Assembly: GCA_007122185.1 (NCBI GenBank)
Contig: SKUI01000187.1
Coordinates: forward strand, 1 to 6,130
DNA length: 6,130 nucleotides
Source of the DNA: Rhodothermia bacterium
Lineage (GTDB): Bacteria; Bacteroidota; Rhodothermia; Balneolales; Natronogracilivirgulaceae
Direction: 5' to 3'
Both the position numbers and the translations under genes were made by a program. Positions 1 through 6,130 of the stretch are shown in pieces. Below the pieces are notes generated by a model. It was not told where the DNA came from, searched no databases, and was given only the letters and a program-made list of their open reading frames with translations. Every line of letters begins with the position of its first letter. Position 1 is the stretch's first letter.

Positions 1-2389
<2,389 letters not shown>

Positions 2390-2802: not shown

Positions 2803-4434
2803 ATGAAATCGGGCTCATCCGGTCTGACAACCGTTCAGATCACAGGACTGTTTCTGGGCATCTTCGGACTGATTCTGCCGTTCCTGCTTCCGCTTGGCAC
2901 GCTCTCCTTTGCGGGCCACATCGGACTCGGGATCTTTATATTGGCAGCGATCTTCTGGATGTTCGAACCCATACCCATCTACGCCACATCCATGCTGGTC
3001 ATCCTTCTGCAGATCGTGCTGCTGAGTGCCCAGGGTCCCATGTACATGGATGCCGAGCTGCCATCCGGCAAACCCGTGGAGCTGCAGGAAAACACGTGGC
3101 AGATCCCGACAAATGCCCTGAAGGACGATAATACCGTACTCGTGGTAACAGAGCCGGGGAAAACGGAACCGGTCCGGGTGGATGTGGTCGAGCGCAATGG
3201 AAGGCATGTTATTGTGCGCAGCGAGGAACTGACGGCCGATCAGGCGATCGTGACCGACACCGGACATCGCCTGGTCAACTACCAGCCCAACAGTTACACC
3301 GACTATCTGGGCACCCTGGCCAATCCGATCATCATTCTTTTCCTGGGTGGATTCATGCTGGCGGAGGCGTCGGTCAAATACAATCTGGACAAGAACCTGA
3401 CCCGGTACATGCTTTCGCCATTCGGTTCCAGGCCTCGCTTCATCATCCTCGGGCTGATGCTTGTCACAGCGGCTCTCTCTGCGTTCATGAGCAACACCGC
3501 CACGGCCGCCATGATGGTTACCGTGATCCTGCCGATTATTGCCCAGCTGGAACCCGGGGACCGGTTCAAGTTCGGGCTGGCCCTCTCCATTCCCATTGCC
3601 GCCAACATCGGCGGCATCACCACGCCTATCGGCACGCCGCCCAACGCCATCGTGATTGCGGCACTCACCGAGTACGGAATATCCATCTCCTTCACAGACT
3701 GGATTATCGTAGCCGCGCCGCTGGTCGCCATCATGCTCCTTTTTGCCTGGTGGCTGCTTCTTGCCCTATTCCCGCCAAGTGTAGAACGGTTCAAACTGGA
3801 TATCAAGGGCAAGCTGAACACCAAACCCAAGGCAATCGGACTGTATGTGATTTTTGCTGCCACGGTCCTGCTCTGGATCACCGAAAACCAGCATGGCATA
3901 CCCAGCAGCATGGTCGCCTTCCTCCCGGTGGCGGCGCTGGTAACCGGACGCATCCTCAACAAAAATGATATCCGGAACCTGCCGTGGGATGTGCTGTGGC
4001 TCATGGCTGGCGGTATTTCCCTGGGCATTGGAATGGACAAGACCGGCCTGGCCGTATGGATGATCTCCGGACTTGACTGGGGAGCCATGGGGTACATCGC
4101 CCTCATCCTGGTCTTTGCGCTGGTGGCCGTGGGCATGTCCAATTTCCTGTCCAATACCGTAACGGCCACCCTGATGATGCCGCTTGTGATCAGCCTGCAT
4201 ACTTCCGGCGTGATGGGCGACGACTTCAACCTTCTTGTCACCGGTATCGTGATTGCCGTCGCCTGCAGTCTTGCCATGGCACTTCCGATATCCACCCCGC
4301 CCAACGCCATTGCCATGTCCACCGGCATCATACGCACCAAGGACATGGCCCGGGTCGGTGTTATCATCGGCACGGTCGGAGTCATGCTTGTTCTTGCGTA
4401 CGCCGTCTTTTACTGGCCATTAGTCACAAATTAA
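2803..4434 (+). CDS. DASS/SLC13-family sodium:carboxylate symporter with a soluble insert
   Basis: This is an inner-membrane secondary transporter of 543 residues, probably importing di- or tricarboxylates with sodium. Both family signature repeats are intact: Ser230-Asn231-Thr232 in SNTATAAMM with TPIGTPPN (274-281), and Ser450-Asn451-Thr452 in SNTVTATLMM with STPPN (497-501). These form the two hairpin tips that bind sodium and substrate in VcINDY-like proteins. Membrane segments fall at about 11-32, 38-58 and 60-77, then from 172 on (NPIIILFLGGF) to the C-terminus, roughly eleven in all. Between segments three and four lies a hydrophilic stretch of about 90 residues (77-166), where typical DASS proteins have a short loop. 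Residues 98-158 look like the membrane-proximal domain of HlyD/RND adaptors. No Shine-Dalgarno precedes the ATG. The receiver gene follows after 30 bases with no terminator, so co-transcription is likely. Substrate is not determinable from sequence; sulfate is less likely but possible. Confidence 0.9.
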   Translation: MKSGSSGLTTVQITGLFLGIFGLILPFLLPLGTLSFAGHIGLGIFILAAIFWMFEPIPIYATSMLVILLQIVLLSAQGPMYMDAELPSGKPVELQENTWQIPTNALKDDNTVLVVTEPGKTEPVRVDVVERNGRHVIVRSEELTADQAIVTDTGHRLVNYQPNSYTDYLGTLANPIIILFLGGFMLAEASVKYNLDKNLTRYMLSPFGSRPRFIILGLMLVTAALSAFMSNTATAAMMVTVILPIIAQLEPGDRFKFGLALSIPIAANIGGITTPIGTPPNAIVIAALTEYGISISFTDWIIVAAPLVAIMLLFAWWLLLALFPPSVERFKLDIKGKLNTKPKAIGLYVIFAATVLLWITENQHGIPSSMVAFLPVAALVTGRILNKNDIRNLPWDVLWLMAGGISLGIGMDKTGLAVWMISGLDWGAMGYIALILVFALVAVGMSNFLSNTVTATLMMPLVISLHTSGVMGDDFNLLVTGIVIAVACSLAMALPISTPPNAIAMSTGIIRTKDMARVGVIIGTVGVMLVLAYAVFYWPLVTN

Positions 4435-4464: not shown

Positions 4465-4968
4465 ATGGAAAGATCCGATATCTATATCCTCTGCATTGAA
4501 GATGAACAGGAAGTGCTGGATGCGGTCGTCCGGGACCTTGAAAAACTGGAAGAGCAGTTTCCGGTTGAAACGGCGAATACCGCCGAGGAGGCGCGCGACG
4601 TGATCGGAAAGCTTCTGGATGACGGCAAGAAGATCGGCCTGATTCTCTGCGACCATATCCTTCCGGGGGATAATGGTGTGGAACTGCTCATCGAATTGCA
4701 CAACGACGAGCGGACCCATGCTTCCCGCAAAGTGCTGCTTACCGGACAGGCCGGGCTGGACGATACGGTCAGGGCTCTGAACGAAGCCCGTTTGCACCAC
4801 TACATCCCAAAGCCATGGACCAGGCAAGAGCTGCTGGAAGCAGCTGTCAATTTGCTGACCGATTTCGTAATTGAGGAAGAGGAGGATATTCTGCCTTACA
4901 TGAGCACGCTTGATGCAGAGAAGCTTTCGGAGTCCATCAGGACCCGCAGAAGCATCAGTGACGAGTAG
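4465..4968 (+). CDS. Stand-alone CheY-like response regulator receiver protein
   Basis: This is a 167-residue cytosolic two-component receiver. The acidic pair is Glu12-Asp13 (CIEDE), the phosphoacceptor is Asp63 in CDHILPGDNG, the switch Thr is Thr93 in LLTGQ, and the conserved Lys is Lys116 in PKPW. The receiver fold takes up about residues 5-130. The remaining 35-40 residues are acidic (IEEEED) then Ser/Arg-rich, and contain no DNA-binding or enzymatic output domain. It may therefore act by protein contact, as a phosphate shuttle or as an allosteric partner of the adjacent kinase. The KPW ending is common in receivers paired with multidomain kinases (family knowledge from memory). The gene begins 30 bases after the transporter stop with no visible Shine-Dalgarno, and the kinase start lies 78 bases downstream. 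A functional link to the transporter is inferred from position. Confidence 0.9.
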   Translation: MERSDIYILCIEDEQEVLDAVVRDLEKLEEQFPVETANTAEEARDVIGKLLDDGKKIGLILCDHILPGDNGVELLIELHNDERTHASRKVLLTGQAGLDDTVRALNEARLHHYIPKPWTRQELLEAAVNLLTDFVIEEEEDILPYMSTLDAEKLSESIRTRRSISDE

Positions 4969-5046: not shown

Positions 5047-6130
5047 ATGATATTAAACTTTGCCAAAAACTGGCTCCAGGACCCCAGCCGCATCACCAGG
5101 CAGATTGCCAAGTATCTCCAGGCATCCGGTGCTTTTGACGTGGAAGTGCTGGATTTTGAAAAGGATGACCGGTTTTTCAGCGAAGGGGACTTCAATGAAT
5201 CGGTCTTCATCCTTCTGGAGGGAACGGTGCAGCTGTCGAAGAAGACACAGACCGGGCGCAATATCACCGTTGACTGGCTGCGTCCGGGTGCACTCGTGGG
5301 GCTCATTTCCTTTGTGACCGGAGAACCGGTGCTTACAACGGCTGTTGCCGCTAGTCCCTGCAAGGCCATCAAGATGAAGGAAAAGGACTTCCTGGAACTG
5401 CAGCGCAGCCGGGGCGAGGTGGCCCTGCTGGCCCAACAGCTGATAATCGGCAACCTGATCGATCGCTACCATCATGTGGTCTCGGTCCACGTGGAACTGG
5501 AAAGCATCAACGACACCCTTGAGCGGGAGCGGAACCACTTGCGTGAAGCGCTCAAGCAGCTGGAGGAAACCCAGCACCGACTGATCAGCCAGGAAAAAAT
5601 GGCCACGCTCGGACAGCTGGTTGCCGGTATCGCCCATGAGATCAACAATCCGGCTGCAGCCATGCTTCGCGCTTCTGAAAACCTGCTGGAATATCTCCCC
5701 GATATCATCCAAAAGGCCGATCCGGACCAGGAATATCACTACGATAAATTTTTCCGGCTTGGCCTGCGCCGCGTATTGCGGGATTCCGACCAGCAGCGGC
5801 AGAAACTGAAGGAGTGGGAAAAGGCCTATCCCGACCTTCCGCGGAGCCTGCTCAGGAAAGTGACCTCCATGAGCGATGAGGCGCTTGCGTTTGTGAAGGA
5901 ACAGATCGGCGACAAGCCCGGCGCACCACGGCGCACAGAACTCGAAAGCATGATCCTTTTTTACGAGAGCGGATATTTCCTGAAAAACCTGCAATCCAGC
6001 ACCAAGCGCATCGGCGAAATCGTATCCAGCCTGAAGAGTTACAGCCGGCAGGACAAGGGCAAATACGAAAAAGCGGATCTCCGGGACGGACTCAATGACA
6101 CGCTGCTGCTGCTGTCCAACCGGCTCAAGA
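5047..6130 (+). CDS. Sensor histidine kinase with cNMP-binding-like domain, 3' end cut by window edge
   Basis: The frame is open from 5047 to the window end, giving 361 visible residues. Residues about 25-130 form a CRP/cNMP-binding-like beta-roll (FILLEGTVQL, DWLRPGALVGLISF). Residues about 145-185 are charged and heptad-like, a likely coiled-coil linker. The H-box is MATLGQLVAGIAHEINNP with phosphoacceptor His197. The second dimerisation helix is at about 317-335 (STKRIGEIVSSLKSYSR), followed by the run-in to the ATPase domain (LRDGLNDTLLLLSNRLK). The HATPase N, G1 and G2 boxes lie beyond the window. There is no signal peptide or membrane segment, so the kinase should be cytosolic. It probably autophosphorylates and passes phosphate to the receiver encoded just upstream. 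Two oddities: the phosphate-binding cassette of the cNMP domain lacks its usual Glu and Arg, and about 115 residues separate the H-box region from the second helix, far more than the usual short turn. Confidence 0.92.
   Translation, partial: MILNFAKNWLQDPSRITRQIAKYLQASGAFDVEVLDFEKDDRFFSEGDFNESVFILLEGTVQLSKKTQTGRNITVDWLRPGALVGLISFVTGEPVLTTAVAASPCKAIKMKEKDFLELQRSRGEVALLAQQLIIGNLIDRYHHVVSVHVELESINDTLERERNHLREALKQLEETQHRLISQEKMATLGQLVAGIAHEINNPAAAMLRASENLLEYLPDIIQKADPDQEYHYDKFFRLGLRRVLRDSDQQRQKLKEWEKAYPDLPRSLLRKVTSMSDEALAFVKEQIGDKPGAPRRTELESMILFYESGYFLKNLQSSTKRIGEIVSSLKSYSRQDKGKYEKADLRDGLNDTLLLLSNRLK

Follow-up and report, generated by a model that had tools for sequence, protein, structure and literature searches.

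A DASS-family transporter gene of a Rhodothermia bacterium encodes a predicted adaptor-type membrane-proximal domain between its third and fourth membrane segments

The window analysed here, a stretch of 6,130 nucleotides (contig SKUI01000187.1, assembly GCA_007122185.1, Rhodothermia bacterium), contains an intact open reading frame (ORF) of 543 residues on the forward strand (2803-4434) encoding a DASS/SLC13 transporter, in which the loop between the third and fourth transmembrane segments (TM3 and TM4) is replaced by a hydrophilic block. This insert is very probably a membrane-proximal (MP) domain of the type found in efflux adaptors. We give an even chance to the full reading, a DASS importer whose TM3-TM4 loop has become a complete-looking adaptor MP domain acting in cis; the cis role taken separately lies between a tentative suggestion and an even chance. 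Computed here were the family of the transporter, the insert's predicted fold, signature and conservation, and the linkage to a regulator/kinase pair. The features of the transporter gene are:

2803..4434, + strand: DASS/SLC13 transporter with insert, 543 aa (TIGR00785, PF00939, AlphaFold2 model)
2977..3024, + strand: TM3, residues 59-74 (helix in the AlphaFold2 model; periplasmic exit from DASS topology)
3037..3294, + strand: inserted MP-like domain, residues 79-164
3064..3087, + strand: split N-terminal strand, residues 88-89 and 92-95 (DSSP of the insert model; structural alignments start at adaptor N-terminal residues)
3079..3276, + strand: match to positions 247-314 of the 322 in the NCBIfam model RND_mfp, residues 93-158
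3295..3378, + strand: TM4 region, residues 165-192 (helices 165-173 and 175-192 in the AlphaFold2 model)

The membrane part of the transporter is that of an ordinary DASS protein. It scored 260.2 bits against the DASS profile TIGR00785, above the curated cut-off of 198.6, a PDB sequence search returned VcINDY structures as its best solved relatives, and the AlphaFold2 model (mean pLDDT 88.7) superposed on VcINDY (6okz_B) with an E-value of 1.2e-19 and a TM-score of 0.85 by target length. S230-N231-T232 and T452 were invariant in a 48-row alignment, with S450 and N451 present in at least 90% of rows; the two SNT motifs are presumably the substrate/sodium site of DASS carriers. Judged from its family and neighbours, the protein is most likely a sodium-coupled C4-dicarboxylate importer. 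An identity as a resistance-nodulation-division (RND)/HlyD-type adaptor was also tried and rejected, because the score against RND_mfp was 17.7 bits for the whole protein and 22.8 for the insert (cut-off 94.9) and because the barrel, lipoyl and alpha-hairpin domains of an adaptor are missing, the insert consisting of 86 residues in one predicted beta domain. The protein is no adaptor but a DASS variant carrying a borrowed domain.

A sequence-only reading of the window had placed a hydrophilic insert between the third and fourth membrane segments, and its coordinates proved right to within one residue, the block lying between TM3 (residues 59-74) and TM4 (from residue 165). The signature that it described runs as stated, except that WQIPTNAL starts at residue 99 (its W) rather than 98. 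In relatives, the spacing between TM3 and TM4 motifs was either 40-44 or 110-121 residues with no intermediates (172 of 187 sequences scored by regular expressions, which left 15 unscored). The insert is acidic (14 D/E versus 8 K/R). The charge counts of the transporter's loops were uninformative on topology, so the periplasmic placement of the loop rests on DASS homology, which agrees with the side proposed earlier. Structure prediction, which the same reading had put forward as a check, modelled the insert as a single beta domain of MP fold, and its split strand may be taken as the equivalent of an adaptor's own N-terminal strand. Structural alignments spanned, for example, residues 38 to 368 of an adaptor chain with 74 residues aligned, as ranges rather than residue pairs; such ranges would imply that the N-terminal strand packs against the C-terminal part. 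A Foldseek search with the insert returned nothing with an E-value below 0.001; TriABC was the top match (0.039) and FliI chains followed (0.041-0.087, probability up to 0.97), with adaptors lower (0.91-0.98). Re-examination of these matches with VIA-align separated the adaptors from the FliI chains.

The assignment is supported by profiles in both directions. Against RND_mfp, the insert gave an E-value of 3.8e-5 when cut out alone and only 0.0013 within the whole protein. An hhalign comparison of the insert with 20 adaptors gave 72% (score 36.6) over their full length and 88% (score 36.9) for their C-terminal 115 residues, compared to 0.26% (score 13.9) for the reversed insert and at best 2.1% (score 20.1) for 60 column shuffles, both against full-length adaptors. 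These adaptors had been collected independently of the insert, by means of the NCBIfam model, and represent 20 of 30 adaptor loci; of the other ten, five were not read out and five were excluded, one for an ORF on the wrong strand and the rest for long C-terminal tails. The likeness to adaptors is thus above chance in the controls run. Conversely, a profile built from 39 inserts gave 11 matches when 61 genomes were searched at E 0.01, of which two were DASS genes and nine were other ORFs. At E 0.001 it gave 15 matches in 395 genomes of the phylum, made up of seven DASS genes (one of them also found in the smaller search) and eight others. All 17 non-DASS matches passed RND_mfp (114.8 to 266.2 bits), and in these adaptors the profile matched near the C-terminus. 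Together with the predicted fold, these results bear out the adaptor-type beta domain claimed from sequence. Pfam returned no coherent family for the insert or for the 39 inserts.

Several PDB matches were set aside. The single insert matched one hypothetical protein (E 0.32) and four TIM barrels designed de novo, the latter with E-values from 3.1e-5 to 0.015 and, in the alignments shown, through three repeats scoring 6-11 bits each; all five were judged to be chance matches. A lone E-value of the size obtained with RND_mfp consequently proves little, given that designed barrels reached 3.1e-5 with the same insert. With the insert profile, the adaptor 4l8j appeared at E 0.86, after a hypothetical protein at 0.77, which is too weak by itself.

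Among 163 proteins retrieved, 102 had the long spacing and 45 the short one, with 16 unscored; the searches were seeded with this transporter family, and these shares reflect that seeding. The insert is in frame and, occurring in so many proteins, is no assembly join, as had been proposed. A search for other carriers, likewise suggested at the outset, found many, and the insert is common to a whole DASS subfamily and is no peculiarity of the window's protein. Among 45 genome loci, spanning 3-18 kb and many on short contigs, it was present in 40 and absent from five (L039-L043). Within the class to which one Balneolaceae genome belongs, 33 of 244 genomes had matches to the insert profile at E 1e-6, 28 in open frames of at least 538 aa and five in shorter frames (one with an in-frame stop), with DASS identity checked for part of them; within the order of an Alkalitalea genome, two of 247 had such matches. 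Insert-less relatives include the marine Gracilimonas and Balneola. A literature search found no description of a DASS insert of this kind, which does not prove its absence. Four public records of insert-bearing transporters (P0014, P0077, P0102 and P0136; 462-480 aa) have their first residue inside the insert or shortly ahead of it, so that the first membrane helices are missing; start-site annotation errors are the probable cause. The open frame around a partial insert match at G511:C238:46278-46481 (L135) has 147 aa and contains an in-frame stop, and the match is perhaps a decaying copy.

A first tree had 104 rows, among them some long ones and one outgroup row, OUT_L055, that was misaligned. 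For a second tree, with insert columns excluded, 64 of these rows were retained; of the 40 removed manually, OUT_L055, P0061 and L013 were long or unusual, and the others were taken out to thin relatives. In the 64-row tree, the 14 insert-less rows fell in one supported set of 18 (99/98) together with four insert-bearing rows, the other 42 ingroup rows all carried the insert, and the insert label required three changes. Insert-bearing P0061 stood beside the mostly insert-less set in the 104-row tree (support 80). As the outgroups lack the insert, a single gain followed by losses is the simplest reading, on a rooting that is weak because the outgroup branch in the 64-row tree is very long. Records labelled Bacteroidales, Bacteroidetes or Sphingobacteriia (L015, L024, L026-L030, L033, L034 and L045) nested among Balneolota in the trees, which suggests transfer between lineages. 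The length of the insert (span 79-170) was 87-93 residues in 136 of 138 distinct insert-bearing sequences and 99 in two; W99 was kept in 126 of them and P102, A105 and H155 in 132 each. Median dN/dS (nonsynonymous to synonymous substitution ratio) was 0.09 for the insert, where 36 of 45 pairs could be used, and 0.05 for the remainder, where all 45 could; the corresponding median dS values, 1.5 and 1.1, are near saturation, which makes these ratios rough. On this rough measure the insert is under purifying selection, yet evolves faster than the membrane part.

The other genes of the window are:

2..2389, - strand: pyruvate phosphate dikinase, divergent, truncated by the window start (PF01326, PF00391, PF02896)
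4465..4968, + strand: response regulator, 167 aa (PF00072; the receiver domain is the sole family above cut-off)
5047..6129, + strand: histidine kinase with an N-terminal cyclic nucleotide monophosphate (cNMP)-binding domain, truncated by the window end (PF00027, PF00512)

Every one of the 38 loci with 1,700 or more bases downstream (33 carrying the insert and five lacking it; many are close relatives) keeps the order and strand of transporter, regulator and kinase, as do four of four further regions, one of them from the genome of L017. Neither a regulator nor a kinase match was found beside the five other DASS genes inspected in five of the same genomes. A full-length relative of the kinase in L011 has cNMP-binding, HisKA and HATPase_c domains and looks soluble, its peak hydropathy (1.59, against a membrane-segment threshold of 1.6) lying inside the cNMP domain. 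The divergent pyruvate phosphate dikinase was found upstream in 15 of 45 loci, and a GTP-type phosphoenolpyruvate (PEP) carboxykinase downstream in 12 of 45, the window's closer relatives (e.g., L011:12047-13885). This suggests a gluconeogenic setting leading from C4-dicarboxylate to PEP, which would fit C4-dicarboxylate uptake. An adaptor gene near the transporter was detected at E 1e-8 in only one of the 45 loci (L017, about 4 kb downstream).

Other explanations of the insert were weighed against a role in cis. Convergence of the insert and adaptors on a common small beta barrel is highly improbable, as profiles in both directions pick adaptors at the matching C-terminal stretch and the reversed and shuffled controls fail. 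The insert might instead be a docking platform for a separate periplasmic adaptor, making the transporter part of a tripartite export system, and the sequence-only reading had suggested docking with a periplasmic or outer-membrane partner, or sensing of something there. MP domains do contact pumps in the parts of a 2015 review available (PMC4446572), adaptors above the family cut-off occur in all eight genomes examined (12-20 matches each, fragments included), and L017 does encode one nearby. However, the parts that reach TolC (barrel, lipoyl and hairpin) are missing and L017 is alone among the 45 loci, many of them short contigs, which makes docking very unlikely; in addition, G005 and G006, whose nearest homologue is insert-less, have equally many adaptors, and the locus appears from its neighbours to serve import. 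The outer-membrane docking was therefore not upheld.

The constant linkage of the three genes, and its absence beside other DASS genes, would also suit a periplasmic sensor feeding the kinase and regulator, a split transceptor with the MP domain as input, and fused transporter-kinase transceptors are known (CbrA, from partial accounts). However, the same trio persists in the insert-less loci L039-L043, so the insert is not required as kinase input, and the single full kinase examined looks soluble and has an input of its own in the cNMP-binding domain; a sensor is accordingly unlikely. Quite unlikely, too, is a wider version in which MP domains are portable transporter regulators and an importer has captured an armless one in cis. 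On the periplasmic side the domain would then signal where the DASS dimer stands in its elevator cycle, on the inside the cNMP-binding kinase and the receiver-only regulator would sense the carbon supply, and together they would form a split C4-dicarboxylate transceptor. Finally, a passive extracytoplasmic decoration, or an adaptation to salt or alkali, is doubtful. The acidity and faster evolution of the insert would suit it, as would its absence from marine relatives and the names and sample codes of many carriers, which presumably point to soda lakes. Against it stand the purifying selection and the near-fixed length and residues, and L043, from the CSSed sample series like many carriers, has no insert; sampling is biased, and the insert may or may not be specific to soda lakes.

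The most economical proposal is that the insert caps the DASS dimer in cis. In this arrangement TM3 would take the place of the adaptor's membrane anchor, the split N-terminal strand would come next, a short turn would stand in for the arm (barrel, lipoyl and hairpin), and the C-terminal MP strands would lead into TM4. TM1-4 belong to the DASS scaffold domain in the available portion of PMC7553777. The insert would accordingly sit on the scaffold near the dimer interface, on the periplasmic face, where it may steady the scaffold and bias the elevator cycle or substrate access, by analogy with adaptor MP domains acting on the pumps that they touch. Control of carbon flux at the locus would fall to the kinase and regulator whether or not the insert is present.

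If a complete MP domain resides in a secondary importer without an arm or a linked partner gene, the effect of the domain on a transporter would be separable from the adaptor's role as a conduit. This would contrast with the 2015 review, whose available sections describe MP domains as exclusive to adaptors whose RND or ATP-binding cassette (ABC) transporter has prominent periplasmic domains (PMC4446572). Since the operon layout is the same in insert-bearing and insert-less relatives (543 versus 466 aa, 57-59% identical), what the domain does to an elevator transporter can be tested directly. A second lead, on the control of DASS uptake, comes from the tight linkage of transporter, regulator and kinase.

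Compared to known systems, the window's transporter resembles VcINDY and other DASS/SLC13 proteins in membrane fold and SNT motifs, and the sequence match with the solved VcINDY chain (444-445 residues) left the insert region unaligned. The Lactobacillus exchanger LaINDY (6wtw_A) has 489 residues, about 45 more than VcINDY and too few for 86 extra if the rest is alike. It carries a different, smaller insertion at the same TM3-TM4 place, near the dimer interface, which the available part of PMC7553777 does not call an MP domain. With the MP domains of RND/MacA adaptors (AcrA, MexA, CusB, ZneB, BesA and MacA) the insert shares the predicted fold, the signature and probably the split N-terminal strand together with the C-terminal part; unlike them, it has no barrel, lipoyl or hairpin domain and is anchored by two membrane helices of a secondary carrier. 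According to the review, MP domains accompany pumps with large periplasmic domains, which DASS carriers lack; it also reports that the part of MacA responsible for activating MacB has been traced to the MP domain, and it speculates that MP domains sense the state of the transporter (PMC4446572). In CbrA (SLC5-STAC-kinase), as far as the partial accounts describe it, a solute carrier is likewise genetically tied to a histidine kinase, whereas in the window carrier and kinase are encoded separately, with no STAC fusion, the carrier belongs to a different family, the kinase has a cNMP-binding domain and the regulator is receiver-only.
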